Source of the DNA: a virus
Length of the DNA: 49,223 nt
Strand: one strand, 5' to 3'
IMG/VR virus record: IMGVR_UViG_3300027985_000505
Span: 1 to 49,223 of that record
Shown here one piece after another: positions 25,341-44,695 of this stretch (within the stretch, counting starts at the first letter, position 1; the number at the start of each line of letters is the position of its first letter). The notes under the pieces are model-generated. The model did not search any database, had not been told where the DNA came from, and saw only the letters and a list, made by a program, of their open reading frames with translations. Made by a program: the position numbers and the translations under genes.

Positions 25341-25364
25341 ATAAAAGGGCATGTTTTTTTCGCG
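25341..25364 (-). promoter_or_regulatory. Repeated phage promoter-like element, copy 1 (TTTTAT variant)
   Basis: Minus-strand CGCG (25361-25364), exactly 14 bp, TTTTAT (25346-25341), then G. It has the same geometry as nine other copies and heads the nuclease/RNA polymerase-like operon. Confidence 0.6.
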
Positions 25365-25365
25365 T

Positions 25366-25398
25366 GCAAAAAAACAGAGACACACTTCAGTATCTCTG
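25366..25398 (-). terminator. Terminator after the PASTA protein gene
   Basis: The minus strand reads CAGAGA - 12-base loop - TCTCTG followed by TTTTTTTG (stem arms 25375-25380 and 25393-25398). It separates the upstream gene from the promoter-like element that begins two bases further on. Confidence 0.75.
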
Positions 25399-25414
25399 CT
25401 TAATAAAAATATTT

Positions 25415-25927
25415 TTAGACTTTGTTTTTGGTTACTGTTTTTTTCAATATACCCGAAATGAATTTTTTATTATTTTTTAATTCGTATTTTGTTAGTTTAT
25501 TTTCTTCATATTCTGTAAATAAGCGAATACTTTCGTCAATAACATCACGAGTCACATATTTTAAATGCACTCTTGTTCCAGGTTCAACTTTTTTATTTTG
25601 GCTCGGGTGAGAAGAAACCACTTGATTATCAAAACAATCTTTATATTTAATATTAGCATCTTTAACAAGAACTGGTGAGGGGTCTGGTCTTAAACCGACT
25701 TCTTCAATATTTGTAATAGCTTGTTCTAGAGTTTTCGGATAATCCTTTAAATATGTTTCTGGTACTTTAACTAGTAGTCTTTGTTTTTCATTATGTGATT
25801 CTATTTTTTCACCTATTGGTTCCGCAAAGACTGCGACAGAGGCAGTGACAGCGGTCACTAATTGTAATAATGTATTTGCGCCTTCTATACCCTTACCTAT
25901 ATTTTTTATGACATTCTTTTTTGCCAA
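25415..25927 (-). CDS. PASTA-domain protein
   Basis: The 170-residue protein has a short membrane-proximal N-terminal part (LLQLVTAVTASVAVFAEPIG, a possible TM helix at about 17-36). A PASTA-like domain (about 55-130) follows, with LEQAITNIEEVGLRPDPSPV and VVSSHPSQNKKVEPGTRVHL, and then a lysine-rich C-terminus. PASTA domains bind peptidoglycan fragments in serine/threonine kinases and penicillin-binding proteins. The start is a TTG at 25927, chosen because GGAGG lies 8 bases upstream and no ATG is near. A 117-bp stretch of this gene is repeated exactly inside the ssDNA-binding-like gene at 30938-31528; it completes the PASTA fold here, so this gene is the likely source. Confidence 0.65.
   Translation of the reverse strand: MAKKNVIKNIGKGIEGANTLLQLVTAVTASVAVFAEPIGEKIESHNEKQRLLVKVPETYLKDYPKTLEQAITNIEEVGLRPDPSPVLVKDANIKYKDCFDNQVVSSHPSQNKKVEPGTRVHLKYVTRDVIDESIRLFTEYEENKLTKYELKNNKKFISGILKKTVTKNKV
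25547..25663 (-). repeat. 117-bp exact repeat, copy A (within the PASTA gene)
   Basis: All 117 bases are identical to 31133-31249 in the same orientation and reading frame, encoding 39 residues (starting KDANIKYKDCFDN and ending RVHLKYVTR). Flanking sequences differ from the first base outside. Here the segment is an integral part of a PASTA domain. Confidence 0.97.
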
Positions 25928-25970
25928 ACAAATCGCCCTCCGTTCTAAAATTTATATAAAAATATTGTTT

Positions 25971-26300
25971 TGCCCAAAAACCCACTTTTTTTTGCTTATT
26001 TATATATAAATAAATATTTTTTTTCACATTAATTAAGAATAAAAGTGGGCAAGTGGGCTTTTACACCCAAAATATACCAAATATAAACGTTTTTGTTTAT
26101 ATTATACACATTTTTAGCCTTTTTTAGCCTTTTTTAGCCTTTTTTCAAGCCCACTTTTGTTCCTTGAAAGTGGGCAAAAACCCACTTTTTTTGGGCTTTT
26201 TAATAAAAATAGTATAAAAAACACAAATTTAAAATCATAAAAACATACAAAATCATAAAAAGCCCACTTTTTCAAAAAGGAAAGTGGGCAAAAACCACTT
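25971..26300. repeat. AT-rich gap with GCCCACTTT inverted repeats and TTTTTAGCCT direct repeats; candidate replication origin
   Basis: This stretch has no gene. The core CCCACTTTT or its complement occurs at about 25981, 26041, 26051, 26149, 26167, 26181, 26262 and 26281, forming hairpins such as 26149-26157/26167-26175 and 26262-26270/26281-26289. CCCACTTTTT at 25981 and AAAAGTGGG at 26041 flank a 50-bp run of nearly pure A/T that could be an unwinding element. TTTTTAGCCT is repeated three times in tandem (26111-26140). Iterons around an AT-rich core beside replication genes suggest an origin; the last hairpin also follows the lipoprotein gene and may terminate it. Confidence 0.6.
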
Positions 26301-26317
26301 ATAATTTATTATTATTT

Positions 26318-26737
26318 TTAATCTTTAGGCGACTCAATGGTAATATCCATCAGTTTAGTGTCCTCATTAAACATTATTTGCACGCGATATTTATCGTTAT
26401 TATAAGCGGAATACAGATATGAAGTCTTGTGATAATCAACACTAAACCCTTTTTTAAAGCAGTTATCAACGTACGTATCAAACTGTTGTTGTGAATATTC
26501 GCCAACGTCAATCATAATAAATTCGGAAGTTTCTAGAGTTACCTCCCCTTTATTCGATTCGGGAACGGGTAACATAGCGCCCAAAGTACTAGTCGGCCAA
26601 GTAAACTCCTCATAAACGACAGCCTCCGTTGTTGAAACGCTATTGGTGTTCGTACCCACCTTTTTATCACTACACGCAGTATACAACAACATTACACTTA
26701 ACAACATAATTATTACTAATATATTTTTTTTCAACAT
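26318..26737 (-). CDS. Lipoprotein, DUF6591-like (probable lysogenic conversion gene)
   Basis: The 139-residue protein has a type II signal peptide: positively charged MLKKN, a hydrophobic stretch, and lipobox LYTAC with the lipidated cysteine at about 22. The mature part (EFTWPTSTLGAMLPVPESNK, then a DVGEYSQQQFDTYVDNCFKK segment) resembles DUF6591 lipoproteins encoded by Bacillota chromosomes. It would be anchored on the outer face of the membrane. It has its own perfect consensus promoter and is followed by hairpins, so it is an independent unit probably expressed in the lysogen. The role (surface change, superinfection exclusion or other host benefit) is unknown. Confidence 0.75.
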   Translation of the reverse strand: MLKKNILVIIMLLSVMLLYTACSDKKVGTNTNSVSTTEAVVYEEFTWPTSTLGAMLPVPESNKGEVTLETSEFIMIDVGEYSQQQFDTYVDNCFKKGFSVDYHKTSYLYSAYNNDKYRVQIMFNEDTKLMDITIESPKD

Positions 26738-26771
26738 GATATTTGGATCCTTTCAACTGTTAATAATATGA

Positions 26772-26800
26772 ATTATAACTGTTAATTTTTTATTTGTCAA
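26772..26800 (-). promoter_or_regulatory. Consensus sigma-A promoter of the lipoprotein gene
   Basis: The minus strand reads TTGACA (26800-26795), 17 bp, TATAAT (26777-26772), both hexamers perfect. The ATG lies about 35 bp downstream. It is the strongest host-type promoter seen in the window, and unlike the phage-specific elements it should be active in a resting lysogen. Confidence 0.9.
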
Positions 26801-26807
26801 TCTCAAT

Positions 26808-26963
26808 TTATAAAATCCAGTTTTCTTTTGTTATAAATAGAGGGCCTCCAATTATTAAAGTAAATAGTAAAAAAGTCCCGTCGCCATTAATTAAAGAACT
26901 GAAACCTAATATAATAAGCATTACGGCAACCACTTTATTTTTAATTAATTTTTTATTAAACAT
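26808..26963 (-). CDS. Small membrane protein (51 residues)
   Basis: This short minus-strand gene reads MFNKKLIKNKVVAVMLIILG and continues with a second hydrophobic helix, ending KENWIL. Two transmembrane segments separated by a short GDG turn are visible. A GAGGACG site precedes the ATG at 26963. It lies between an early gene and the lipoprotein promoter. The overlapping plus-strand frame is a weaker candidate. The function is unknown. Confidence 0.6.
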   Translation of the reverse strand: MFNKKLIKNKVVAVMLIILGFSSLINGDGTFLLFTLIIGGPLFITKENWIL

Positions 26964-26978
26964 ATTTTTACGTCCTCT

Positions 26979-27314
26979 CTAATTTATGGTTTTAACTTCT
27001 ACCTCCATTTCTTTTTCCAAATCAATATCTAATGTTTTTTTAACCCAATCGACGCAGTCTTGTATACCAAATGATACACCTAAAAAGCCGGTTCGCATCA
27101 ATTCAAAAGTTGATTTTAAGTCATAAAATTCCTGTTTAAGCTTTGCGGTACTAATATTAGTGTTTATAAATTTAGTGTATAGAATAGCTGAAATAAAACC
27201 TACTGAAAAATTTTTAGCATGCTCGTCTCTAGTTTTCTCATATTCCGACTCGACAACCGCTTGTATTTCTTTTTGACTTAAATTTGAAAGATTTCTAGGA
27301 ACGCGTGCTTTCAT
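26979..27314 (-). CDS. Unrecognised early protein (111 residues)
   Basis: This basic, mostly helical protein begins MKARVPRNLSNLSQKEIQAV and ends with an acidic ...DIDLEKEMEVEVKTIN. One weakly hydrophobic stretch (SVGFISAILYTKFINTN) may lie in a helix bundle. An AAAGGGG site precedes the ATG. It is part of the leftward early operon with 27349-28946. No family is recognised. Confidence 0.6.
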   Translation of the reverse strand: MKARVPRNLSNLSQKEIQAVVESEYEKTRDEHAKNFSVGFISAILYTKFINTNISTAKLKQEFYDLKSTFELMRTGFLGVSFGIQDCVDWVKKTLDIDLEKEMEVEVKTIN

Positions 27315-27348
27315 ATATATACCCCTTTTTCAAATAGTTAAGAGTTTA

Positions 27349-27537
27349 TTAATATATCTTATTTCGCATAGAAAATAAATCTAAATGTGGTGGCGAAACA
27401 GTTGCTGTGTTGTTAAATGTGTTTTCACCGATGATTCCAATACGCTCGCCAATTTTAATAAGCCGATTTCTATCGGCGGTTGTTAAACAATCTTTAACCG
27501 CACATTGAATAATAAAGGCAGATTCCTCTTCATACAT
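27349..27537 (-). CDS. Unrecognised small protein (62 residues)
   Basis: A short soluble protein (MYEEESAFIIQCAVKDCLTT...) with a GGAGG site (the end of the upstream gene) before its ATG. It follows a small membrane protein gene by 2 bp and is probably translated from the same mRNA. No motif is recognised. Confidence 0.55.
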   Translation of the reverse strand: MYEEESAFIIQCAVKDCLTTADRNRLIKIGERIGIIGENTFNNTATVSPPHLDLFSMRNKIY

Positions 27538-27539
27538 TT

Positions 27540-27722
27540 TTAATTACCCTCCATAAACACCACTTTAATTAGCAATAATAACATCCATAGCGATAAAAAT
27601 ATATCGACCGCCATAAAAAATAATTCGCCTCTTTTGAAATACAGTATACTGTTTTTTAAAAACCCAGCCCCTAAAAAAATAATGATAATTGGTAGTACAA
27701 TACCCATAATAAGCACGTCCAT
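27540..27722 (-). CDS. Small membrane protein (60 residues)
   Basis: Two hydrophobic helices (IMGIVLPIIIIFLGAGFLKN and FFMAVDIFLSLWMLLLLIKV) are joined by a short basic loop. Its start overlaps the stop of the membrane-anchored glucosaminidase gene (27722), so the two are likely coupled. A holin-like or accessory role for that hydrolase is conceivable from topology and context only. Confidence 0.6.
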   Translation of the reverse strand: MDVLIMGIVLPIIIIFLGAGFLKNSILYFKRGELFFMAVDIFLSLWMLLLLIKVVFMEGN

Positions 27723-28354
27723 TATTTATAACCCTCCATAATTTTGTATTGTTGGTCGCTCATAATACTTAATAACGTGTAAACATAATCCTCATTTGGG
27801 CAATATCGTTTACATACGTCTGCTATATTTGTACCGACGCGATCCTTATATTTGCTAGATAACTTTGACGCCACATATAAAATGCACTCGTCAACACTAT
27901 TAAATTCCATATATGAGCCGTCAACCCTTGCCCAACCAGCAACATTATTTTTACCAGATGTGTGCGTACACCACCCGCTTTCTAAACCAATTTGGCACAT
28001 AAAATATAAAGCATTAACTCCGTATTTTTGTTCTGCTTCAAGAAAAGTATTTATATATGGTAAAATATTTTTATAATTACCTTTTGAAAAAGCACATACC
28101 AACTCTTTTTTTGTAAATGGACACGCCTTTAATATATCAAACTCAATATCCATTTCTTGTAGCGAGAAGTCAGCTTGGTAAGGATTATTAACACTAACTA
28201 CATTTTTATAATACTGGTCTGCGCAGTCGTCAATATAAAACACAAACTCCGGTGCGTTTATTATATCTTTTGGTTGATTAAAATATAATAAAGTGACGGT
28301 TGTAATATTAACCGCCATCAATAAAATATTTAAACTTCTAATAATTTTAAGCAT
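27722..28354 (-). CDS. Membrane-anchored glucosaminidase-like protein
   Basis: The 210-residue protein has an N-terminal signal anchor (IIRSLNILLMAVNITTVTLL). Its C-terminal domain (about 95-210) has the ALYFMCQIGLESGWCTHTSG motif, with the likely catalytic Glu125, and VAGWARVDG, as in GH73 / mannosyl-glycoprotein endo-beta-N-acetylglucosaminidase enzymes that cleave peptidoglycan glycan strands. It lies in the early/replication region far from the lysis cassette that carries a second GH73 enzyme. Its job may be local wall remodelling or exclusion, not lysis (inference). A two-TM protein gene follows with overlapping stop/start. Confidence 0.75.
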   Translation of the reverse strand: MLKIIRSLNILLMAVNITTVTLLYFNQPKDIINAPEFVFYIDDCADQYYKNVVSVNNPYQADFSLQEMDIEFDILKACPFTKKELVCAFSKGNYKNILPYINTFLEAEQKYGVNALYFMCQIGLESGWCTHTSGKNNVAGWARVDGSYMEFNSVDECILYVASKLSSKYKDRVGTNIADVCKRYCPNEDYVYTLLSIMSDQQYKIMEGYK

Positions 28355-28376
28355 GTAAAACCAATCCTTTTAATGA

Positions 28377-28778
28377 TTATTGTTTTTTACACTCCTCCTC
28401 TGAAAAATAACATAAAAACATAGCATTACATAAACAATGCTCAATATGTTTAAACCCAGATTCTTCATCAACTCCGTTTGGGTCTTTTAAATATGCGACA
28501 AAGTGTCTTATTAATGCTGCTCTATATCGTTCTGGTGAAACACCTTGCCAACTATTATCTTTGTATTTGCCAGCGCCATAAGTTAATATCCGACCCAAAG
28601 CCTCATAAGCAATTGGCGGAATAAGATCCATTCTTAATTTTCCTTCGTCATATTTTAAACCGTTACTCTGGTCTAAAATAATATCACCGTACTCTAATTC
28701 CTTTACTGCTCTGGGTGTTTTGGAGTACACATTTATAGCCGTTGTAACTGCATCATATAGTGTTTCTTCTTTACTCAT
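28377..28778 (-). CDS. dATP/dGTP diphosphohydrolase-like protein (DUF5664)
   Basis: The 133-residue protein has a GLKYDEGKLRMDLIPPIAYE motif and LTYGAGKYKDNSWQ, followed by a RYRAALIRHFVAYL helix and HIEHCLCNAMFL. This matches the DUF5664 / dATP-dGTP diphosphohydrolase family related to MazG-type all-alpha NTP pyrophosphatases. It probably adjusts the nucleotide pool during phage replication. It lies in the replication operon 6 bp after a small zinc-ribbon gene. Confidence 0.8.
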   Translation of the reverse strand: MSKEETLYDAVTTAINVYSKTPRAVKELEYGDIILDQSNGLKYDEGKLRMDLIPPIAYEALGRILTYGAGKYKDNSWQGVSPERYRAALIRHFVAYLKDPNGVDEESGFKHIEHCLCNAMFLCYFSEEECKKQ

Positions 28779-28784
28779 TCCAAC

Positions 28785-28946
28785 TCACCTAGCTTCCTTA
28801 AAATTAATCGGTTTATGCGAATAAGTATTTACTGGATTATTTAAACAGTCGTCACACGGTGTAGAGTCTTCAGAAAGGTCCTTATATTCGCATGCGGGAC
28901 AATATTGGTCAAAATATACTTCTTTATCTGAATTTATTTCGCTCAT
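28785..28946 (-). CDS. Small zinc-ribbon protein (53 residues)
   Basis: The frame from the ATG at 28946 encodes 53 residues with two Cys pairs, YCPACEYKD and CDDCLNNPV, then NTYSHKPINFKEAR, a treble-clef or zinc-ribbon layout. A GGGGGG-type site lies just upstream and the next gene starts 6 bp after its stop. From memory, near-identical small proteins precede the dATP/dGTP diphosphohydrolase gene in many Clostridia phages, which supports it as a real gene. Function unknown; nucleic-acid binding is likely. Confidence 0.75.
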   Translation of the reverse strand: MSEINSDKEVYFDQYCPACEYKDLSEDSTPCDDCLNNPVNTYSHKPINFKEAR

Positions 28947-28997
28947 TTCACACCCCCCCCATAAAATAAAAAAGAAAAGAGCCTATAGAAACGTTGA

Positions 28998-29339
28998 TCA
29001 TACAATTTTCACGGATTTTCTTTCGTTGTATTCGGTCTCATCAATCTCTTTCCAACCGTCTTCGGACTCTTTGAAGAATCGATTTATTTCTATTTTTTCG
29101 ATATCGGCCTTATTAGACTCTTCTCGTAATAAACATATAGCTATTGCATATAATATACCGACGGTATCAAAGTCCCCATTTTTTTGGTCTGTCAGGAAGT
29201 CTTCACAGTAAACTTTAATAGGACTTCCGGGGAAGTAAGGCATGGTGATAGGAAACATTTCATCTATGATTCTCTGCACGAGACCACTGTGATAGGGAGC
29301 TTCAATATTGTTTAAGTTAACAGTATATAACATACTCAT
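28998..29339 (-). CDS. Unrecognised early protein (113 residues)
   Basis: A soluble acidic protein with an N-terminal strand region (MSMLYTVNLNNIEAPYHSGL) and a helical C-terminus. An AAAGGATG site precedes the ATG. Its mRNA begins just after the terminator-like hairpin at 29370-29387 with no separate promoter visible, so it may depend on read-through. No family is recognised. Confidence 0.6.
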   Translation of the reverse strand: MSMLYTVNLNNIEAPYHSGLVQRIIDEMFPITMPYFPGSPIKVYCEDFLTDQKNGDFDTVGILYAIAICLLREESNKADIEKIEINRFFKESEDGWKEIDETEYNERKSVKIV

Positions 29340-29359
29340 AATTAATCATCCTTTCAAAA

Positions 29360-29388
29360 TAAAAATAAAGAGCCCTTGTTAAGGCTCA
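29360..29388 (-). terminator. Terminator-like hairpin of the TAACAAGG-loop family (copy 1)
   Basis: The minus strand GAGCC-TTAACAAG-GGCTC (29370-29387) is followed by TTTATTTTTATTTT. The TGA stop of the upstream 64-residue gene lies inside the first stem arm. The next gene starts only 31 bp downstream. Confidence 0.75.
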
Positions 29389-29580
29389 ATATTTTCCGGT
29401 ATAAGCTATACATTCACTTTTCATTCTAATATTGTTATTATCAACAATTTTTTCTGTTATTTTAGCATATTTCCAAACTTTCCAATTCATAATTTTTACC
29501 GCTTTTTGTAATGATTTAACGTTAAAAATAAATATAAAATTTCTTTTTGTCCAACAGCTAACACAATAAACTCTTTTCAT
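29386..29580 (-). CDS. Unrecognised small basic protein (64 residues)
   Basis: The gene follows a copy of the repeated promoter-like element and has an AGGAGG site. The product is basic with a YCVSC Cys pair near the N-terminus (MKRVYCVSCWTKRNF) and another cysteine near the C-terminus. Its stop codon lies in the arm of a terminator-like hairpin. Function unknown. Confidence 0.6.
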   Translation of the reverse strand: MKRVYCVSCWTKRNFIFIFNVKSLQKAVKIMNWKVWKYAKITEKIVDNNNIRMKSECIAYTGKY

Positions 29581-29617
29581 AATAATCCTCCTATAAAATA
29601 ATTGTTTTAGTTATTCC

Positions 29618-29641
29618 ATAATAGAAGATGTTTTTTTCGCG
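29618..29641 (-). promoter_or_regulatory. Repeated phage promoter-like element, copy 2
   Basis: Minus-strand CGCG (29641-29638), 14 bp (AAAAAAACATCTTC), TATTAT (29623-29618), GG. It sits just after the helicase gene stop and 38 bp before the next ATG. Confidence 0.65.
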
Positions 29642-29643
29642 TG

Positions 29644-30873
29644 TTAGTCTCGCCATTCGACATATTTACTTTCGTTAAAATTCTTTTTATTTTTTAATGC
29701 TCTACTAATAGCTAAATCAATCCCGCTACGAGATTTTAAATGATAGTAATATAAATCCGAGTAAGGCGTGTTAAGTCTATCAGTTCTACCAGCGGCTTGA
29801 GTCATGACTTTATATGAATAATTCTGGGAGTAAAAAATTATGGTGTCTGTTCGAATGCAATTCCATCCCTCACAACCAGCGTTATATTGAACCAAATATA
29901 CCCAACGTGTACTGTCTGGTATTGGCTGGTGTTTAAACCCGTTCCATTCAGCGATTTTTACATCATTACCATAATTAAGCTTTTTTAATAGGTCTAACTC
30001 ATAATTAAAGTTATAAAATATAATAACTCTCGGATGTGCTTCGAATATTTCCAAAACGGCAACTTGTCTGCTTTCATCAGTATTCACAATTTTCCGCCAC
30101 ACCAAACAAAGTCCAGATGCATTTATTATGGGTTCGTTTTTATAAGGATCCCAACGAGTTCTAGAAACGTCCTTATATTTTTCAATATCGTATTTAACAC
30201 TTATTTCTTCATGATGCGATACGGTATTCCTTTGAAACTCCATATTAACAAGGATCAAATTACGAAACCTAATTAACCGTCCAGTGCCAACATACCTATC
30301 AATTTTTGGAAATTTACTAAACCTACTATAAATTATGTGTTCATTTGTAAATTCGGTTTTGTTTTTATAAAACCCGTTAGCAATAAACACCGGAATATAA
30401 TCTTGCCACGTGTCACCTGGCGTAGCTGATAATAATATCCAATCGTTTAATTTGGTTATTTTTAAAAAAGATTTTACCCATGCCCCACTACCTATAACCC
30501 TTTGCTCATCAAATATAAAAAACGCGTTAACAACGTCTGAATATTTTTCAATATTATTCCAACTATCCACCACTACTTTGTTACTATATAAATTTACCTC
30601 TGGGTTAGTTGAAAGAAGAAAAGGAGCCAGTTCACCATCCCACTCAAAAGTATCTCTTTTTCTAGCAGTCGTAATAATATATAAATCTTTAGGAGGATCG
30701 TCCATTACGCAGTGCTCACCACCAAGCAAACTATCTTGATTACCTCCGTTCTGAAGATAATAATAGGATAAAGATGTTAGACTTTTTCCCGAGCCGACTC
30801 CACCACAAAGAATACACCCGGTTTTCATTTGATTAACCGCTTTTATTTGATAATCAAATAATTTTATAGCCAT
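29644..30873 (-). CDS. SF2 (DEAD/SNF2-like) helicase
   Basis: The 409-residue protein has motif Ia region and Walker A GGVGSGKSLTSL (about 23-34), a DEQR motif II (about 124-127), LSATPGDTW motif III and QAAGRTDRLN motif VI near residue 357, the complete signature of a superfamily 2 helicase/translocase. The length is short for SNF2 proteins, as is usual for phage versions. It is probably a replication or recombination helicase. It lies 64 bp after the ssDNA-binding-like gene in the replication module. Confidence 0.88.
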   Translation of the reverse strand: MAIKLFDYQIKAVNQMKTGCILCGGVGSGKSLTSLSYYYLQNGGNQDSLLGGEHCVMDDPPKDLYIITTARKRDTFEWDGELAPFLLSTNPEVNLYSNKVVVDSWNNIEKYSDVVNAFFIFDEQRVIGSGAWVKSFLKITKLNDWILLSATPGDTWQDYIPVFIANGFYKNKTEFTNEHIIYSRFSKFPKIDRYVGTGRLIRFRNLILVNMEFQRNTVSHHEEISVKYDIEKYKDVSRTRWDPYKNEPIINASGLCLVWRKIVNTDESRQVAVLEIFEAHPRVIIFYNFNYELDLLKKLNYGNDVKIAEWNGFKHQPIPDSTRWVYLVQYNAGCEGWNCIRTDTIIFYSQNYSYKVMTQAAGRTDRLNTPYSDLYYYHLKSRSGIDLAISRALKNKKNFNESKYVEWRD

Positions 30874-37560: not shown

Positions 37561-38478
37561 TTACATTAAATCCAATACGTTTCCGTCAACATTGAAATCA
37601 AGAACAACCACCGGTTCAAGTTCTCCGTAACCGTCCTCAATATAAGTCTCAAACATCCCAAAATCAACAAAATTATCTCCATTTGGATTTTTGGGATCAT
37701 AGACCCACCCAACAATTTGTCCAGCCTTTGTTCGAGGAATATCCAACCCGTCAAGAACGTCATTCAGAAACAAGTAACCGTTTGCTTTTAGTTTATTATT
37801 AGCGTGACTTTGTTGGGCTTTCAAAAACATAGCGTTATAATCCATAACGTCATCCCAATAACTGCTACTCTTGTCAAAAACACAAGCATAATCACTTAAA
37901 CCATTAGTAACGTTGATTGTTTTTGTGATTTTCTTTTCTTTACCGGTTTCGGGGTCAATTTCAGTGCCCCCAACTTTTTTAGCTTTTAAATTATATTTAA
38001 GTTCCTTGTCGACTTGCCCCCCAAATCTATTAACAACGTTTTCGCGGTATTCCTTGAAGCTCTTATTAACGGTAGCGTAAGCAGCCGCAAGAGCCATATT
38101 ACGCTTACGCAATATGTTATTTGATATTAACATGCTGCTAATTGACAGTACGCCAAGAGCGACCGCTGGAGCATAAAGCTTCACAAATTTTAAGCCTGTT
38201 TGAGCATAAACAATAGTTAAATCTTTTTTTGCGTCTTTTTCAGTGTATTGTTCGGCCAAAGCAGTATTTGATTGACAGTCATGTATTGACTTTATATCAG
38301 ATTTAGTATTTTCTAGAATTTCGCTAACTTTTGTCGTAGCTTTACAAGCCATAACTGTGCTTACGACTGTTCCTACAACTCCTGCGACGATAAGAATTTC
38401 AGGACTGTGTTTTTTGAGTTTGAACCCCATTTTTCCAATTGAAGATTTAACGGAGTTTACGATTTTTACATCTTTCAT
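37561..38478 (-). CDS. DUF6353-like membrane protein, paralogue A
   Basis: The 305-residue protein has two N-terminal TM helices: one follows KKHSPEILIVAGVVGTVVST, the second is at about 100-120, ahead of ILRKRNMALAAAYATVNKSF. A soluble C-terminal domain carries ANGYLFLNDVLDGLDIP and QIVGWVYDP. This is the recurring DUF6353-like family of gut siphophages. Two paralogues (39719-40489, 41895-42704) have the same architecture. Function unknown; membrane localisation with a cytoplasmic domain is predicted. An AAAGGAG site precedes the ATG. Confidence 0.8.
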   Translation of the reverse strand: MKDVKIVNSVKSSIGKMGFKLKKHSPEILIVAGVVGTVVSTVMACKATTKVSEILENTKSDIKSIHDCQSNTALAEQYTEKDAKKDLTIVYAQTGLKFVKLYAPAVALGVLSISSMLISNNILRKRNMALAAAYATVNKSFKEYRENVVNRFGGQVDKELKYNLKAKKVGGTEIDPETGKEKKITKTINVTNGLSDYACVFDKSSSYWDDVMDYNAMFLKAQQSHANNKLKANGYLFLNDVLDGLDIPRTKAGQIVGWVYDPKNPNGDNFVDFGMFETYIEDGYGELEPVVVLDFNVDGNVLDLM

Positions 38479-39329: not shown

Positions 39330-39371
39330 TAAAAATAAAAATGGAAAGTACCTTGTTACAGATACTTTCCA
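39330..39371 (-). terminator. Terminator-like hairpin of the TAACAAGG-loop family (copy 2)
   Basis: The perfect 8-bp stem GGAAAGTA / TACTTTCC (39343-39350, 39363-39370) has a loop containing GTAACAAGG, followed on the minus strand by ATTTTTATTTTT. The downstream gene begins about 30 bp later. Confidence 0.8.
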
Positions 39372-39390
39372 CCATAAGAACTAAACTTTC

Positions 39391-39642
39391 TTATTCGTCA
39401 TTTTCGTTGTCAACTTCATCATAATCAACGTCTTCAACTTCGTCAGGTTCGCAATTTTCGTTCTTTCTAGCCTTAAGTTTAGTTGTTATAGGTTTAACAA
39501 CAAACTTGTAAGTAAATATACCTCCAAGCGTTGCTAATCCTATAACGCCAGCAACTTTCATTGCTTTTCCAGAACCCGCATTTACAATTTCCTCCGCAGT
39601 TTCAATAACCTCGTTGTTTGTCATGATTTCCATAGTTTCCAT
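39391..39642 (-). CDS. Small acidic membrane protein (83 residues)
   Basis: The ATG at 39642, with AAAGGGG upstream, starts METMEIMTNNEVIETAEEIV. One TM helix (VAGVIGLATLGGIFTYKFV), a basic KLKARKNE stretch and a strongly acidic tail (EVEDVDYDEVDNENDE) follow. The gene is the first after a promoter-like element copy. Function unknown. Confidence 0.65.
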   Translation of the reverse strand: METMEIMTNNEVIETAEEIVNAGSGKAMKVAGVIGLATLGGIFTYKFVVKPITTKLKARKNENCEPDEVEDVDYDEVDNENDE

Positions 39643-39688
39643 TTTAATTTCCCCTTTCAAATTTAGAAAATTTTTAATAATGTTCTCC

Positions 39689-39712
39689 ATAATAGAAGAT
39701 GTGAATTTCGCG
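39689..39712 (-). promoter_or_regulatory. Repeated phage promoter-like element, copy 3
   Basis: Minus-strand CGCG (39712-39709), 14 bp (AAATTCACATCTTC), TATTAT (39694-39689), GG. It lies 7 bp after the DUF6353-B stop and about 47 bp before the next ATG. Confidence 0.65.
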
Positions 39713-39718
39713 TATTAT

Positions 39719-40489
39719 TTAATATCGTGCGTAATCATATCGAGGCTCCACACTATAATTAATAACAAGACACGGTGTCCCATCGGTAGCCAATTGGGAA
39801 CTAAAATCCAAATTAATAAAACCTTTGTTTATATTCCAACCAAGGTCATAACCAATATTCGTGTTGTCTAAATCAAGTAAATAATATAAATCATTTAATG
39901 ATACATATGATTCATTCATCATTTGTCTGTTTAATTCGTTTTCGGCTTTTTTAAGAGCGTCAATGTCGGCTTTAAAATATCTTCCTGATAAGGCGTCATA
40001 ACACAACATATCGCCTTTTTTAGTAATAATAACTTCTTTATTATTAACTGGGTTTTGATTTAGCTGGTCTTTAGCGATAGCGTCCCGAATAGTCTTTTCT
40101 TTTTTCTCTCCAAGTGTCTCAACCACCTTACCTCGATAATCTTTTAACGCGGTTTCAGAAAGAGTGTAAGCGGTAGCTAACGCTGCGTTGCGTCTTGCGT
40201 TTGTTGAACTAGCCCCTATTAAACAGGCGATAGATAACCCCCCAGTTATAACCGACGGAATATAACATTTCCATGTAGTTTTAACAGTTTCTACCGGTGT
40301 AAGTCTGTCAACGAGGTCGTCCTTTTTCTTATTATCGATAAGTATGAGGGCTTTTGGGGTTGCTTTTACAGCCATAATAGTAGTAGCAATCATTCCGGCG
40401 ATACCTATACCGGTAAGAATTTCAGGACTATGTTTGTTCACGGAGGCTTGTACCCGCTTAACAACGCCTGAAAAATATAATTTTCCCAT
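39719..40489 (-). CDS. DUF6353-like membrane protein, paralogue B
   Basis: The 256-residue protein is colinear with paralogues A and C. TM1 lies after NKHSPEILTGIGIAGMIATT, then MAVKATPKAL; TM2 is near VITGGLSIACLIGASSTNAR; the C-terminal domain has YVSLNDLYYLLDLDNTNIGY and DLGWNINKGF. GAAAGGAA precedes the ATG. It lies between the small helical protein genes and a promoter-like element. Function unknown. Confidence 0.8.
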   Translation of the reverse strand: MGKLYFSGVVKRVQASVNKHSPEILTGIGIAGMIATTIMAVKATPKALILIDNKKKDDLVDRLTPVETVKTTWKCYIPSVITGGLSIACLIGASSTNARRNAALATAYTLSETALKDYRGKVVETLGEKKEKTIRDAIAKDQLNQNPVNNKEVIITKKGDMLCYDALSGRYFKADIDALKKAENELNRQMMNESYVSLNDLYYLLDLDNTNIGYDLGWNINKGFINLDFSSQLATDGTPCLVINYSVEPRYDYARY

Positions 40490-40517
40490 ATTTTTACGTT
40501 CCTTTCAAAAATAATTT

Positions 40518-40829
40518 TTAACAATCTGACTTTTCAATATCATTACAAATATCAATAACATTTTCGCACAAATTTAGCGCCATTTTAAACATGTTCTTAT
40601 ATTTTGGTTTGTAGACCAACGTTTGTATCTTTATATAAAAATCCTCAACCGTTTCTATCGGTTCTTTATTGGGGCGGGCTAATATATATTGTGTTAATTC
40701 GTCCGCTGTCCATAACAAGCATGATTTCTCGTCAAAAAGACCATTTTTTTTATTGTTATAGGAGTATTCCGAAATATCAATATCATAAACTTGTTCTTGT
40801 ATGATAAGTATTATTTGGTCACTAGACAT
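40518..40829 (-). CDS. Unrecognised helical protein, pair member 1
   Basis: This protein of about 103 residues starts MSSDQIILIIQEQVYDIDIS (ATG 40829 with AAAGGAG upstream). Its C-terminal half (LLWTADELTQYILARPNKEP ... FKMALNLCENVIDICNDIEK) is related to the adjacent gene at 40844-41146 (SRWAVEEILELLINDPLTDP ... FEIAVDVCEDILSFI). The two are likely a diverged tandem duplication. Function unknown. Confidence 0.6.
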   Translation of the reverse strand: MSSDQIILIIQEQVYDIDISEYSYNNKKNGLFDEKSCLLWTADELTQYILARPNKEPIETVEDFYIKIQTLVYKPKYKNMFKMALNLCENVIDICNDIEKSDC

Positions 40830-40843
40830 TACAGTTAACTCCT

Positions 40844-41146
40844 TTAAATAAAGCTCAATATATCCTCGCATACATCAACCGCAATTTCAAATATATATCG
40901 ACATTCTTTAGTCTTTGATAACAACGAATAATGAATCATCCTATCTTCAAAATGGCTGATAATTATGAACGGATCAGTTAACGGGTCATTAATTAATAAT
41001 TCAAGTATTTCCTCAACCGCCCATCTAGAATACGAACGGCGATTAAATTCGGTTTTTGGCCAGCTGCGTCGAGGTTCAAAGAGATGCTCGTCTAAATAAT
41101 TCATAATTGTTATTGTTACTATTTCATTCATTATTATTTCACTCAT
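40844..41146 (-). CDS. Unrecognised helical protein, pair member 2
   Basis: This 100-residue protein is distantly related to its downstream neighbour. It lacks a clear Shine-Dalgarno sequence; its ATG follows the stop of the upstream gene by two bases (TAATAATG), so translation is probably by coupling. Function unknown. Confidence 0.6.
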   Translation of the reverse strand: MSEIIMNEIVTITIMNYLDEHLFEPRRSWPKTEFNRRSYSRWAVEEILELLINDPLTDPFIIISHFEDRMIHYSLLSKTKECRYIFEIAVDVCEDILSFI

Positions 41147-41148
41147 TA

Positions 41149-41637
41149 TTATTTAAGAAGGGTTGGTTTAAGTAGTTTTATTCGATACCCAGCCCTTGTT
41201 CTAACTAGATTTATATCATTGAGGTTAGTCCAACCATACTTATTTGCCGTGTAGTTATCAGTGGATATATGGGCAAGGTCGTACAGGTCTCCTACGCTTA
41301 CTACTCCGTATTGGCTTATTATTTTAGACATTGCATCTATAACCAACTCCGCGTCTCTTTGGCTTTCAAAGATAATGTCCTCACAATTAAAGCCTCGTCT
41401 ATTGGTGGGTTTTTGGTCCTGCATATCTCTATACCGCACACGTCCATCCCGATAACTTAAATTTTTTGGCTTATTATTTCCGTAAACCAAAACTATAAAT
41501 TTATTAGAAATCACATTGATAACGCTTTTGCGTATGATATCAGATTTCAAAGCAGTTTTTGTGATAATAACCCCGCCCGTTATAAACCCAATAACCGTAC
41601 CAATGATAAAAATAGTAATTTTTTTAAAACCATTCAT
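41149..41637 (-). CDS. RRGFNCEDI-family protein, paralogue B with TM anchor
   Basis: This protein of about 162 residues has an N-terminal TM helix (KKITIFIIGTVIGFITGGVI) and a C-terminal domain nearly identical to the 38502-39107 protein (RRGFNCEDIIFESQRDAELV, ISQYGVVSVGDLYDLAHIST, ANKYGWTN). The copy at 38502 has no such TM anchor, so the duplicates differ in predicted location. AAAGGAG precedes the ATG at 41637. Confidence 0.7.
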   Translation of the reverse strand: MNGFKKITIFIIGTVIGFITGGVIITKTALKSDIIRKSVINVISNKFIVLVYGNNKPKNLSYRDGRVRYRDMQDQKPTNRRGFNCEDIIFESQRDAELVIDAMSKIISQYGVVSVGDLYDLAHISTDNYTANKYGWTNLNDINLVRTRAGYRIKLLKPTLLK

Positions 41638-41668
41638 TTTATATTCTCCTTTCAAATATAACCATCTT

Positions 41669-41700
41669 CCTAAAAAGAAGAGTCCTTGTTAAGACTCTTC
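41669..41700 (-). terminator. Terminator-like hairpin of the TAACAAGG-loop family (copy 3)
   Basis: The perfect 8-bp stem GAAGAGTC / GACTCTTC (41677-41684, 41693-41700) with loop TTAACAAG is followed by TTTTTA. The TAA stop of the 52-residue gene lies in the loop. Confidence 0.8.
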
Positions 41701-41847
41701 TTTGTCATGTTCAGAAATAGCTTGATTAACTTTTGCCTCAATTTTTTCATCCATTTTTTTGTCGTTCACCCAATCGGTTACCAACGTTGCTGCCATCCCA
41801 ACTGCCGTAGCGGCAAATCCAAGAATTTTAATAATTTTAGTATTCAT
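41689..41847 (-). CDS. Small membrane protein (52 residues)
   Basis: This short gene encodes MNTKIIKILGFAATAVGMAA, then TLVTDWVNDKKMDEKIEAKV and an acidic end. It has one TM helix and a charged helix. GGAAGGAG lies 9 bases before ATG 41847, directly after a promoter-like TATTAT. From memory, small proteins with this sequence pattern occur in related phages. Its stop codon lies in a terminator hairpin loop. Confidence 0.75.
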   Translation of the reverse strand: MNTKIIKILGFAATAVGMAATLVTDWVNDKKMDEKIEAKVNQAISEHDKEES

Positions 41848-41864
41848 TTATAATCACTCCTTCC

Positions 41865-41888
41865 ATAATAGACGTTGTGTATTTCGCG
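41865..41888 (-). promoter_or_regulatory. Repeated phage promoter-like element, copy 4
   Basis: Minus-strand CGCG (41888-41885), 14 bp (AAATACACAACGTC), TATTAT (41870-41865), then GGAAGGAG, which is the Shine-Dalgarno sequence of the next gene. A start site 7 bases downstream would remove most of this ribosome binding site; a start at the first G keeps it. Confidence 0.7.
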
Positions 41889-41894
41889 TGGTGT

Positions 41895-42704
41895 TTACTC
41901 TTCCTCCAATAACAATAAATCAATAGGGTCCCATAATGCAGATACTATATAACACTCCATTCCGTCATCCATAGTGACAAGTCGATTTTCAAAATCTAAC
42001 CACATAACCCCTCCGGCCATAAGGTCATCTATAGACCACCCAAATACTTCTCCACGGTCAATTGGTTCTATACCTAGAAAAGTATAAAACTCATTTAAAT
42101 ATGCGTCGCCTCTTAAGGCTAAATTTCTGTTAAAATGATATTGAGCATTTATAACTGATGCCATGGTAGAAGTAAAATATCGTCCAGAATAATTGTCAAA
42201 GAATAATATTTTTTCACTTTCGTCTATGTTCGGGTCATACGTATGATAACCATCAGCCGAAACATATATATCTTTAGCCGCTTGTGCTGATATTTTTGAA
42301 TCTGCATCTTCCCCATATACTTTTTTAGCGGCTTTTCTGTATTTTTGGTACGATTCGTTAAGCAATGAATAAGCACTTACTAATGAAGCTTGACTACGTT
42401 TATTCAGAACATTAGCTCCAAATATACATAAAATAGTCGATAAACCTATAACCGTTGTTGGTATATAACATTTCCAACATGATTGTACCACTTCTTTTTT
42501 TGTAAAAGCGTACGGATCTCCGTCGTGATTAATTCTGCTATCGCGTTTAATTAACTCTACCGCTTTAGGGGTAGATTTTACAGCTAGCACTGTGGTTACT
42601 AACACCCCAACGGCACTAATACAAGTTAAAATAGTAGGGGAGTTCCTTTTTATAAACGAGTTTTTATTACTAAGCATCCCGTTTATGTTTGACCATTTGT
42701 TCAT
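41895..42704 (-). CDS. DUF6353-like membrane protein, paralogue C
   Basis: This protein of about 269 residues has the same two-TM plus soluble-domain layout as paralogues A and B: KRNSPTILTCISAVGVLVTT, VLAVKSTPKAVELI, then IGLSTILCIFGANVLNKRSQ and a C-terminal LRGDAYLNEFYTFLGIEP with GEVFGWSIDD. The second ATG (42704) is chosen because GAAAGGAG is too close to the first. It is the first gene of the DUF6353 group in transcription order. Confidence 0.8.
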   Translation of the reverse strand: MNKWSNINGMLSNKNSFIKRNSPTILTCISAVGVLVTTVLAVKSTPKAVELIKRDSRINHDGDPYAFTKKEVVQSCWKCYIPTTVIGLSTILCIFGANVLNKRSQASLVSAYSLLNESYQKYRKAAKKVYGEDADSKISAQAAKDIYVSADGYHTYDPNIDESEKILFFDNYSGRYFTSTMASVINAQYHFNRNLALRGDAYLNEFYTFLGIEPIDRGEVFGWSIDDLMAGGVMWLDFENRLVTMDDGMECYIVSALWDPIDLLLLEEE

Positions 42705-42724
42705 GTTCATTCTCCTTTCAGAAT

Positions 42725-42791
42725 AAAAAAAAGAGTGTAGGAATCGAACCTACTTACGCTATTAGCGGTAGCCCAGCAAAACTACTCTTTC
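42725..42791 (-). ncRNA. tRNA-like small RNA with its own promoter-like element and terminator
   Basis: The minus strand forms a 7-bp acceptor-like stem AAAGAGT / ACTCTTT (42790-42784, 42736-42730), a perfect T-arm GTAGG-TTCGATT-CCTAC (42753-42737), and either GCTA-CCGCTAA-TAGC (anticodon-like loop reading GCT) or CGCT-AAT-AGCG. Only 30 bases separate acceptor and T-arm, so the D-arm is missing or vestigial, and no CCA is encoded. Eight T residues follow directly, giving a terminator. The acceptor starts one base after TATTATG of a promoter-like element. This is not a normal tRNA; it could be a mimic, decoy, processed remnant or regulatory RNA. Confidence 0.6.
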
Positions 42792-42815
42792 ATAATAGTA
42801 CTTGTAAATTTCGCG
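42792..42815 (-). promoter_or_regulatory. Repeated phage promoter-like element, copy 5 (drives the tRNA-like RNA)
   Basis: Minus-strand CGCG (42815-42812), 14 bp (AAATTTACAAGTAC), TATTAT (42797-42792), GAAAGAG. It is identical over 31 bases (CGCG through GAAAGAG) to copy 7 at 43219. Confidence 0.7.
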
Positions 42816-42818
42816 TAA

Positions 42819-42847
42819 AAAAAGAAAGAGCCCTTGTTAGGACTCTG
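42819..42847 (-). terminator. Terminator of the TAACAAGG-loop family (copy 4)
   Basis: The minus strand reads AGAGTCC-TAACAA-GGGCTCT (42827-42846) followed by TTCTTTTTTT. The stop codon of the 62-residue gene is the TAA of the loop. Confidence 0.85.
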
Positions 42848-43025
42848 TCTTTTGACCTATAAATTTTTGCATTTCGTTTGTAAAATTTTGCATTACAACA
42901 CAATTATCCCATCCGTCGTTTAAGCCTTGTTTGTAGCTTTTTCGTCCCGCATACCAAGTGGTAGCTAGTCCGATAGCTCCTATAAGCCCCCCTCCGATTA
43001 TGTAAATAACCTGCTCTTTTTTCAT
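42837..43025 (-). CDS. Small membrane protein (62 residues)
   Basis: MKKEQVIYIIGGGLIGAIGL continues through one TM helix to a soluble tail (GLNDGWDNCVVMQNFTNEMQ). AAAGGATG precedes the ATG; a promoter-like element lies 32 bp upstream and the stop codon lies inside the terminator loop, making a compact one-gene cassette. Function unknown. Confidence 0.7.
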   Translation of the reverse strand: MKKEQVIYIIGGGLIGAIGLATTWYAGRKSYKQGLNDGWDNCVVMQNFTNEMQKFIGQKTES

Positions 43026-43056
43026 AATTTAAACATCCTTTCAAATTTTTATTTCC

Positions 43057-43080
43057 ATAATAGAAGATGCAAATTTAGCG
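43057..43080 (-). promoter_or_regulatory. Repeated phage promoter-like element, copy 6 (CGCT variant)
   Basis: Minus-strand CGCT (43080-43077), 14 bp (AAATTTGCATCTTC), TATTAT (43062-43057), GG. It directly follows the T-tract of the structured RNA at 43082-43218. Confidence 0.6.
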
Positions 43081-43081
43081 T

Positions 43082-43218
43082 AAAAAAAAAAAAGAAAGAG
43101 AGGCGGCTCACATAATTAACCATTAAATGTACTAACGTCCCTCGATAGCTGTTCGCTAAACCTTCAAGTTATACATACCTTTCTCAGATTATACCGATCC
43201 GTCATATAATCCTCTTTC
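43082..43218 (-). ncRNA. Structured small RNA, about 125-135 nt
   Basis: There is no coding frame in this gap. From the G after TATTAT (43218) the minus strand begins GAAAGAGG and ends CCTCTCTTTC followed by twelve T, so the two ends can pair and close the RNA. Inside are GATTATA-11-TATAATC (perfect 7-bp stem), TAGC-GAACA-GCTA, and ACAT-TTAA-TGG-TTAA-TT-ATGT hairpins. The same promoter-like sequence drives the nearby tRNA-like RNA. No known RNA family is recognised. Confidence 0.6.
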
Positions 43219-43242
43219 ATAATAGTACTTGTAAATTTCGCG
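43219..43242 (-). promoter_or_regulatory. Repeated phage promoter-like element, copy 7 (drives the structured RNA)
   Basis: Minus-strand CGCG (43242-43239), 14 bp, TATTAT (43224-43219), GAAAGAG. It begins 2 bp after the stop of the upstream gene. Confidence 0.7.
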
Positions 43243-43243
43243 C

Positions 43244-43603
43244 TCAGATATCCCTCCTGTCAAAAACCGTCTCCCAACGCTCACGCTTAATTGGTTTCAT
43301 TTTTAAACCCCACATAATTTGTCTAATTGTAACTGTAGGATATAAACCATCCGTACACTTTTTAGCACGATTATCAAAATACTCCTTGAATCTCGGATGT
43401 AAATATAAATCGTCGGTTAACCACGGGTCTACTTCGCCCCACCATGTGCTTTTTGTATCCGGATTAAATCGCTGTTGTATAATTGCTAATCCTTTTTTAT
43501 CTATTTTAAATAAAGTACATTGACCGTAAACCGGATGTTCACACGTATACAGTTTTCCGTACATTGATAAATAAATATGTGGTTTTTTATAATGATGTCT
43601 CAT
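43244..43603 (-). CDS. Conserved phage protein (119 residues)
   Basis: It starts MRHHYKKPHIYLSMYGKLYT and carries CTLFKIDKKGLAIIQQRFNP, STWWGEVDPWLTDDLYLHP and a C-terminal IKRERWETVFDRRDI. From memory, proteins with this pattern are strongly conserved in Clostridia mobile elements and phages, but their function is not known. The ATG at 43603 has GGAG 6 bases upstream; an in-frame TTG at 43615 is less likely. Confidence 0.75.
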   Translation of the reverse strand: MRHHYKKPHIYLSMYGKLYTCEHPVYGQCTLFKIDKKGLAIIQQRFNPDTKSTWWGEVDPWLTDDLYLHPRFKEYFDNRAKKCTDGLYPTVTIRQIMWGLKMKPIKRERWETVFDRRDI

Positions 43604-43611
43604 AATTATCT

Positions 43612-43641
43612 CCAAAAAAGAAAGAGCCCTTGTTAGGACTC
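43612..43641 (-). terminator. Terminator of the TAACAAGG-loop family (copy 5)
   Basis: The minus strand reads GAGTCC-TAACAA-GGGCTC (43624-43641) followed by TTTCTTTTTT. It separates the zinc-ribbon gene from the conserved 119-residue gene; the next Shine-Dalgarno sequence starts right after the T-tract. Confidence 0.8.
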
Positions 43642-43656
43642 CATCTTATAATAAAT

Positions 43657-43944
43657 TTAATCGTCAAATATTTTACAACTGATCATGCAGTTTGGGTAAG
43701 GTCCTCCGCACGCGATACAGCATTCGGGTTTATTCCCCTCTGGGTCTGAATATATTTCTTCGTAGTCATATGATGTAGCAAGCTTCACATAAAACTCTTT
43801 ATTCACAGAATCATATTCAAGACACCCTTCGGCTCCACAATTAGGACATTCCCAATCTAATAAACCGCCTATGTAATTCATTTTGCATCCACAATCATCA
43901 CAAAAGTACTCTTCGTGTTGATTATAGTCGTTTTCTTTGCTCAT
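43657..43944 (-). CDS. Zinc-ribbon protein (95 residues)
   Basis: Three Cys pairs are visible: FCDDCGCKM, WECPNCGAEG and ECCIACGGPYPNC, giving two zinc sites. The first two pairs make a classic zinc ribbon of about 30 residues, suggesting nucleic-acid or protein binding. AGGAGG precedes the ATG. The gene has a structured leader of about 100 bases after a promoter-like element. Function unknown. Confidence 0.7.
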   Translation of the reverse strand: MSKENDYNQHEEYFCDDCGCKMNYIGGLLDWECPNCGAEGCLEYDSVNKEFYVKLATSYDYEEIYSDPEGNKPECCIACGGPYPNCMISCKIFDD

Positions 43945-44046
43945 AAAATATTACCTCCTATTAATTTGAAAGATATTACATAAATTATATAATACTTTCT
44001 TTATTAAGTAAAGAGATAAAAGAGCTCTTTAAAATCTCCTTTCTCT
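43945..44046 (-). other. Structured leader of the zinc-ribbon gene
   Basis: About 100 bases separate the promoter-like element from the ATG. They hold AAAGGAGAT...ATCTCTTT (sequestering an AGGAG) around an AAAGAGCTCTTT palindrome, and a second stem GAAAG-T-ATTA / TAAT-AT-CTTTC. This suggests RNA-level control, but no known riboswitch is recognised. Confidence 0.4.
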
Positions 44047-44070
44047 ATAATATACCTTGTAAATTTCACG
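44047..44070 (-). promoter_or_regulatory. Repeated phage promoter-like element, copy 8 (CGTG variant)
   Basis: Minus-strand CGTG (44070-44067), 14 bp (AAATTTACAAGGTA), TATTAT (44052-44047), AG. It is the only copy with A at the predicted start position. Confidence 0.55.
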
Positions 44071-44106
44071 TGAAAAACGAAGAGACCATGTAAATTACAC
44101 GATCTC
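44071..44106 (-). terminator. Terminator after the 44125-44508 gene
   Basis: An 11-bp stem with two or three G-T pairs (arms 44096-44106 and 44082-44092, loop ATT) is followed on the minus strand by TTCGTTTTT. A promoter-like element starts immediately after. Confidence 0.75.
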
Positions 44107-44124
44107 ATCCGTTTTGAGTTGCTT

Positions 44125-44508
44125 CTAATTTTTATTTGTTGGTTTAAATCTGTTAAACAAACCTTTAAATGTCGTCGAAGTATAAGTACCAGTTTCTTCA
44201 AACTTAAATCCCTTACGCATCCATGTAGCATAGAAAATTAACGGCAATACAATACCCGCTGCTTCTATTCCCAACCTAAAATATCGGTCTTTAGCACGTT
44301 CTGCTAATTGGTTACCTAGATCTGCACATTTATTGCATTTATCCAAATAGTTCAATTCAGCATTAACGTCCTCCATTCTTAATTGGTATAGAGCAGATAG
44401 ATTTGCTATTGCTGCCTTTTTCTCATCGCTTCCGGATTTTAAGGTGGATAAATTTTGAATTTCTGCTTTTATCTCATCCTCCAACATCTTCTTGATTTCA
44501 TCATCCAT
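44125..44508 (-). CDS. Coiled-coil / membrane protein (127 residues)
   Basis: It starts MDDEIKKMLEDEIKAEIQNL (ATG 44508 with AAAGGAG upstream). A long helical part with a CNKCADLG Cys pair, one TM helix (LGIEAAGIVLPLIFYATWM) and a short basic tail follow. From memory, proteins with this layout are common in the early regions of Clostridia phages. Function unknown. Confidence 0.65.
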   Translation of the reverse strand: MDDEIKKMLEDEIKAEIQNLSTLKSGSDEKKAAIANLSALYQLRMEDVNAELNYLDKCNKCADLGNQLAERAKDRYFRLGIEAAGIVLPLIFYATWMRKGFKFEETGTYTSTTFKGLFNRFKPTNKN

Positions 44509-44545
44509 TTTTATTTCTCCTTTCAAAAATATTTATTGGCTTCCC

Positions 44546-44569
44546 ATAATAGAAGTTGTTATTTGTGCG
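44546..44569 (-). promoter_or_regulatory. Repeated phage promoter-like element, copy 9 (CGCA variant)
   Basis: Minus-strand CGCA (44569-44566), 14 bp (CAAATAACAACTTC), TATTAT (44551-44546), GG. It lies about 38 bp before the ATG of the coiled-coil protein gene. Confidence 0.6.
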
Positions 44570-44624
44570 TGGGATATTTTTTCCTTTATAAAAATAACAC
44601 ATTTTTCGGTAACCCACGTGCTGA

Positions 44625-44644
44625 TTTTTAATCTAGATTAAAAA
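44625..44644. promoter_or_regulatory. Perfect 20-bp palindrome with CTAG centre
   Basis: Bases 44625-44644 equal their own reverse complement (core AATCTAGATT flanked by T5 and A5). A near copy (16 of 18) lies at 45761-45778 beside the integrase promoter, so this may be an operator for one regulator. It also overlaps the T-tract of the terminator next to it. Confidence 0.6.
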
Positions 44645-44668
44645 AGAAAGAGCCCTTGTTAGGACTCT
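44641..44668 (-). terminator. Terminator of the TAACAAGG-loop family (copy 6)
   Basis: The minus strand reads GAGTCC-TAACAA-GGGCTC (44650-44667) followed by TTTCTTTTT. Its first arm starts four bases after the G that follows TATAAT of promoter-like copy 10, so a transcript from that element would be terminated after about 30 nt. Confidence 0.8.
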
Positions 44669-44671
44669 GTC

Positions 44672-44695
44672 ATTATAGGTTTTATTAATTTCGCG
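44672..44695 (-). promoter_or_regulatory. Repeated phage promoter-like element, copy 10 (TATAAT variant)
   Basis: Minus-strand CGCG (44695-44692), 14 bp (AAATTAATAAAACC), TATAAT (44677-44672), G. The CGCGAAAT part overlaps the last codons of the upstream gene. Confidence 0.55.

Follow-up and report, generated by a model that had tools for sequence, protein, structure and literature searches.

A total of ten copies of a rigidly spaced DNA element, CGCG-N14-TATTATG, were found on the minus strand of a viral DNA of 49,223 nucleotides (IMG/VR record IMGVR_UViG_3300027985_000505, analysed over its whole length and called the window here). Our analysis suggests that this element is very probably the promoter of the phage's own RNA polymerase, a single-chain enzyme of the two-barrel type. 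The element is tied to this enzyme by its association with the polymerase gene, by the predicted fold of the protein and by a start position incompatible with sigma-dependent initiation. From comparison of sequences we infer promoter function, a start of transcription at the conserved G and recognition by the phage enzyme.

Ten minus-strand sites had been predicted in the window, and all were present at the predicted coordinates, each with exactly 14 bases between the two blocks (Table 1). The first block reads CGCG in seven copies (CGCT at 43057, CGTG at 44047 and CGCA at 44546) and the second TATTAT in eight (TTTTAT at 25341 and TATAAT at 44672). The next base is G in nine of the ten copies, as predicted, and A at 44047. 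A profile of 30 columns, trained on 427 sites from other phages with the window sites excluded, gave the ten sites scores of 19.2 to 41.3 and revealed no eleventh site. The next-best score was -0.2 on the minus strand and the best plus-strand score was -0.3; over 40 first-order Markov simulated strands of the same dinucleotide make-up the maximum was 10.5, and no site is expected by chance.

Analysis of the 427 sites revealed the full element as CGCGAAAWWWACA-N5-TATTATG-RRRRR. CGCG occupies columns 1-4, AAA 5-7, WWW 8-10 and ACA 11-13, followed by five variable bases, T[A/T]TTAT at 19-24, G at 25 (98%) and purines at 26-30. The N14 between the blocks is thus not free, since AAA, WWW and ACA are conserved within it. 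The rigid spacing is evident in the viral collection, where the pattern CGCGAAANNNACANNNNNTATTATG matched more than 118 stretches; the same pattern with one extra spacer base matched none and a reversed-order control matched 10. The 20 bases preceding the element are T-rich in the 427 sites, and 190/406 copies have a T tract in the 22 bases ahead of them, vs 41/406 in a downstream control stretch. Several window copies stand directly after a terminator-like hairpin. T tracts and terminator-like hairpins before copies together indicate that many units run in the order terminator, element, short gene, terminator. Three of the window's terminator-like hairpins (AGAGTCCTAACAAGGGCTCT) are near-identical (42827-42846, 43623-43642 and 44649-44668, minus strand), and a similar core, GAGCCTTAACAAGGGCTC, occurs at 29370-29387.

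Co-occurrence of the element with close relatives of the 21680-24433 protein, proposed as a check in the original prediction, was found on both counts made. All 28 polymerase-carrying viral records tested contained the element (up to three mismatches allowed), with 219 copies on the main strand and three on the other, against three for the reversed control. Conversely, the polymerase was encoded in 34 of 50 element-bearing records of at least 30 kilobases and in none of nine control records. The 16 element-bearing records without a polymerase match were all also without the adjoining gene phrog_4303; 13 of them were without the exonuclease, and the other three gave a distant exonuclease match only. 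Six of the 16 were fetched whole and held no other DFDGD polymerase; in five of these six the contig breaks off after the flanking genes, at the place where the polymerase segment would be expected. The sixth, G042, differs in its structural module and has its helicase near the end of the contig. The case that would speak against the link, an intact relative with the element but without the polymerase gene, was not found among the element-bearing records checked, in which fragments cannot prove polymerase presence.

Isolated phages also carry the element, in every case on the coding strand; their hosts belong to eight genera of Actinobacteria and Firmicutes (Faecalibacterium, Arthrobacter, Gordonia, Microbacterium, Bifidobacterium, Curtobacterium, Rhodococcus and Streptomyces). 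Faecalibacterium phage FP_oengus has 14 copies, mostly CTTTATG, and Arthrobacter phage Mudcat has seven. Lineage-specific forms were observed, with CGCATATTTTACACGCCCTATAATGAGACCCC in several actinophages and ..CTATAGTGAGACCCC in Streptomyces phage Rima. The Lactococcus forms are low-scoring and were read by eye: CACAAGTTTTACATATACTATAGTAGA in phage 1706 and TTTTAAGTTTTACATACCCTATAATGAGAGG (the TTTTAAGTTTTACA form) in P078. The polymerases of these two phages are the most diverged compared (38-39% identical), and they pair with the most diverged elements. In most clostridial relatives one near-invariant copy precedes the polymerase by about 0.9-1.4 kilobases, and a copy so placed occurs in several other lineages too. 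About 30 of the 85 matches in genome contigs are expected by chance, as estimated from pattern length and 257 billion bases, and the scattered non-clostridial hosts among these matches were therefore left unused.

Comparative RNA features suggest that transcription most likely starts at the conserved G, one base after TATTAT. Downstream of 343 copies there is an open frame together with a Shine-Dalgarno core. This core begins 0-6 bases after G25 in 44 of them and before G25 in none, a result that alone is compatible with a start slightly upstream of G25. Folding of the polymerase-operon leader from G25 gave a hairpin that opens with a pair at +1 or +2 in 20 of 26 relatives; if transcription began at +7 instead, 5.7 kcal/mol would be lost on average. 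A tRNA or tRNA-like gene follows the element immediately in 28 of 547 copies, and in 24 of these 28 the first paired base of the extended acceptor stem is G25. ARAGORN called 11 of the 28, eight of which begin at element positions 27-29, upstream of position 31, where a sigma-A start would fall. For the copies concerned, the positions of the Shine-Dalgarno cores, the operon hairpin and the tRNA stems leave no room for a start downstream of G25. A start 6-8 bases past TATTAT was looked for as the contrary case, and the comparative features place it at the G or upstream. The earlier claim that an RNA feature begins right after TATTAT in five window copies held for the hairpin at 25341, the Shine-Dalgarno sequence at 41865, the tRNA-like stem at 42792 and the terminator hairpin at 44672; at 43219, according to the predicted fold, the supposed closing stem does not start until the seventh base.

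The tRNA-like RNA of the window (42729-42791) gave a weak Rfam tRNA-Sec match (21 bits, below the cut-off) and was not called by ARAGORN. Element-linked tRNA and tRNA-like genes, in the window and, for example, in records L136, L099, L073 and L145, have acceptor stems of more than seven pairs, often odd or short anticodon loops and a terminal T run. These RNAs could be decoys or regulatory RNAs.

The 21680-24433 protein is a predicted two-barrel (QDE-1-like) RNA polymerase. Its family, phrog_4291, was counted in 250 records of sequenced phages, under the annotations RNA-dependent RNA polymerase, DNA-binding protein or hypothetical protein. D532, D534 and D536 of its SGADFDGD motif are invariant in 33 polymerase sequences, in agreement with the DxDGD signature of the double-psi beta-barrel. 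An AlphaFold2 model (mean pLDDT 78) matched QDE-1 best in the PDB (E 2.4e-7, probability 1.00), then plant RDR2 and then cellular large subunits, with low TM-scores of 0.2-0.3. A C-terminal helix-turn-helix of the sigma region 4 type was identified at residues 877-911 (HTH_38, 1.7e-7), and further helical segments resembling helix-turn-helix domains occur at the N-end. Membership in the family of YonO, the polymerase of Bacillus phage SPbeta, was considered and rejected: YonO belongs to a different PHROG (phrog_8308), and hhalign gave a probability of 0.2% and an E value of 0.38, with the alignment around the DxDGD motif only. The start position and the two-barrel fold support the original prediction of a polymerase other than the host sigma-A holoenzyme; that the phage enzyme itself reads the element is our inference.

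The proposed promoter would span about -24 to +6, with a recognition block (CGCGAAA, WWW, ACA), a five-base spacer and TATTAT as the melting and start block. The G at +1 would be the start base, followed by a purine-rich first transcribed stretch. We speculate that recognition involves the helix-turn-helix domain or domains of the polymerase. Through the copy ahead of the polymerase operon the enzyme would drive its own synthesis, and the other copies would drive short early transcription units, often right after the terminator of the preceding unit.

Several observations weigh against this assignment. In the phage collection, the set of phages with the DNA polymerase of the same module (256 records) almost coincides with that of the RNA polymerase (250 records), so that association alone cannot single out the RNA polymerase. 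The CGCG block is gone in Lactococcus phage P078, and Streptomyces phage HotFries has weak copies only. No recognisable element was found in the SPbeta stretch upstream of yonK, where YonO is reported to start, but YonO belongs to another family; the exact mapped start could not be transferred to the SPbeta record used. Hairpins at the G are not general among copies (20% at G, the same as elsewhere), and since the other copies show no hairpin excess at G25, the argument from hairpins at the start is limited to special copies: it stands for the copy of the polymerase operon and for those with tRNA-like RNAs, and fails for copies in general.

The main rival reading is that the host RNA polymerase acts with a phage activator bound to CGCGAAA..ACA around -30, TATTAT being the -10 block, as with MotA on T4 middle promoters. 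It would account for the two blocks, the upstream one about 30 bases from a classical start, and for the element's occurrence before many early genes. The start position speaks against it, however, because a classical start would cut off the Shine-Dalgarno cores, the operon hairpin and the tRNA-like stems. Furthermore, the -10 statistics are wrong for sigma-A, FP_oengus is without a -10 consensus, phages with hosts from two phyla retain the element, and a Pfam scan of 20 early-region proteins (most without any match) found no activator or sigma factor; we consider this reading unlikely. RNA features that begin exactly at the G, together with an endonuclease-like gene in the polymerase operon, would also suit a signal at the RNA level, namely a site at which longer transcripts are processed by a cut ahead of the conserved G. 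Yet nearly half of the copies follow a terminator-type T tract, so that little read-through RNA is expected, and such a cut needs no rigidly spaced upstream block of 25 bases, which makes processing very unlikely. A phage-encoded or alternative host sigma factor reading CGCGAAA-N-TATTAT with the host core enzyme is given a slightly smaller chance still. The layout is bipartite and the phage does have a helix-turn-helix of the sigma region 4 type, though on the polymerase itself; a separate sigma factor was not found among the proteins scanned, and a start one base past the second block misfits sigma-dependent initiation.

Plain host sigma-A promoters or chance repeats are highly improbable. 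TATTAT resembles TATAAT, and T-rich upstream DNA yields weak -35 look-alikes, but the exact-spacing control, the profile separation and the conservation across hosts all argue otherwise. As originally claimed, no TTGACA lies at a normal distance; the nearest sequence, present at some copies, is TTTACG, 16 bases from TATTAT, which is the upstream T tract plus ACG, with the TTG positions unconserved. The second block also has statistics unlike those of a -10: A makes up only 70% at position 20, the would-be second -10 base, whereas the ordinarily loose position 21 has T in 99%, and the comparative RNA features do not place the start about seven bases past the block. A -10/-35 reading was therefore rejected. 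An N4-type hairpin promoter was rejected as well, complementarity around TATTAT being without clear excess over shuffled pairing. The least probable reading weighed is that of scattered repressor operators, such as the stoperators of cluster A phages. It shares with the element many directional intergenic copies, but the copies lie ahead of transcription units and behind terminators, their transcribed side has purine runs, the RNA features keep a set position relative to the G, and the change from CGCG to CGCA has no matching partner half-site.

A perfect TTGACA-17-TATAAT occurs at 26772-26800 (minus strand) ahead of a lipoprotein-like gene (26318-26737), which is probably a cargo gene; this sequence is unconserved. 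It was rejected as a sigma-A promoter of the polymerase operon, as it precedes this unrelated gene and a comparable match near this place was found in only one of the 30 relatives checked.

No conserved strong sigma-A promoter was found ahead of the polymerase operon among the relatives checked. The only conserved promoter-like element before the operon is the enzyme's own, and hence a first supply of enzyme is needed. We tentatively propose, as a possibility we hold to be rather doubtful, that the polymerase is packaged in the virion, enters with the DNA and uses the elements to transcribe its own operon as well as the early units, independently of the host polymerase. The N-terminus of the polymerase has a conserved LxHYGxPxRSGRYPWGSG motif (window about 24376), which resembles the HYGxxGMKWGxRR tag (Pfam DUF7211) of small late-region proteins (window 19169-19573, minus strand). 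Entry of the enzyme together with the DNA would follow if this tag serves to bring proteins into the virion. A search of the open-access literature found no paper on the N-terminal tag. A frame of 129 amino acids bearing the polymerase-type tag was observed in record L049 (15800).

Table 1. Elements, associated RNA features and polymerase-operon genes in the window.
Feature	Position	Strand	Evidence or remark
Element 1, CGCGAAAAAAACATGCCCTTTTATG	25340..25364	-	profile score 41.3; copy of polymerase operon (endonuclease, exonuclease, RNA polymerase)
Leader hairpin beginning on conserved G, GAAGAGAAAGT...ACTTTCTCTTTT	25301..25340	-	loops vary, stem kept in relatives
Element 2	29617..29641	-	between helicase gene (29644-30873) and small downstream gene 29386-29580
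Element 3	39688..39712	-	pattern and profile
Element 4	41864..41888	-	Shine-Dalgarno core starts 3 bases past conserved G
Element 5	42791..42815	-	tRNA-like RNA immediately after
Element 6 (CGCT variant)	43056..43080	-	pattern and profile
Element 7	43218..43242	-	pattern and profile
Element 8 (CGTG variant, A replacing final G)	44046..44070	-	pattern and profile
Element 9 (CGCA variant)	44545..44569	-	pattern and profile
Element 10, weakest (19.2)	44671..44695	-	terminator-like hairpin 44649-44668 directly after
tRNA-like RNA, acceptor stem starting on conserved G, T run at end	42729..42791	-	stem folding
Predicted single-chain two-barrel RNA polymerase, 917 amino acids, catalytic SGADFDGD	21680..24433	-	phrog_4291 E 0
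Exonuclease-like gene of polymerase operon	24436..25050	-	phrog_3953 E 2.6e-81
First polymerase-operon gene, endonuclease-like, 109 amino acids	24938..25267	-	49.5% identity to FP_oengus gp53 (annotated endonuclease)
Small gene adjoining polymerase, phrog_4303, locus marker	21434..21673	-	PHROG match

Paralogues of DUF6353 (phrog_2152) were also observed in the early region of the window (37561-38478, 39719-40489 and 41895-42710, minus strand); FP_oengus likewise has three.

Comparison with known systems revealed both likenesses and differences. T7-type promoters consist of one compact element around the start, with G as the start base and purine-rich first bases, and the Streptomyces form of the present element, CTATAGTGAGACC, resembles the CTATAGGGAGACC of T7; the enzyme fold is unrelated, however, and any likeness would have arisen by convergence. 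In T4 middle promoters, which the host polymerase reads, a block recognised by MotA lies near -30, ahead of a TATAAT-like block. The present element shares this layout, but on T4 middle promoters the start is about seven bases downstream of the -10 block. The nearest functional precedent is Thermus phage P23-45, whose gp64 (non-virion) and gp96 (virion) are two-barrel RNA polymerases, each with its own motif upstream of mapped starts (PMC10770324). One of these motifs is AT-rich and the other GC-rich, and the gp96 motif is absent from relatives without the gp96 polymerase domain (PMC10770324). Both cases involve single-chain two-barrel phage enzymes tied to a DNA motif; in P23-45 the starts were mapped. 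Unlike the P23-45 enzymes, phrog_4291 has a C-terminal helix-turn-helix and occurs in phages of Firmicutes and Actinobacteria.

YonO of SPbeta transcribes late genes, and its promoter sequence was left open (PMC5467207). Like the present polymerase it is a single-chain enzyme with a DxDGD active site from a temperate phage of Gram-positive bacteria; it differs in belonging to another protein family, with an insignificant profile match. In SPbeta (NC_001884, record L340; about 60300-60700, minus strand), several TTTATG-purine stretches about 100 bases apart were seen by eye between yonN and yonK. They lie in the region of the reported YonO transcription start.

No description of the motif in these phages was found in the open-access literature, outside which many subscription papers lie. 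Phage RNA polymerases with their own promoters are already known; no account of the present family, of its promoter or of its start was found in the literature searched. Little is known of the promoters used by two-barrel RNA polymerases of phages, and the YonO study left the question open (PMC5467207). Hence, this study provides a defined candidate promoter of 30 bases, with a predicted start base, for a polymerase family present in 250 phage records, and promoter recognition by two-barrel enzymes becomes directly testable in isolated phages of laboratory hosts. If the proposed assignment is true, the element and the enzyme would constitute a promoter-polymerase pair unrelated to that of T7.

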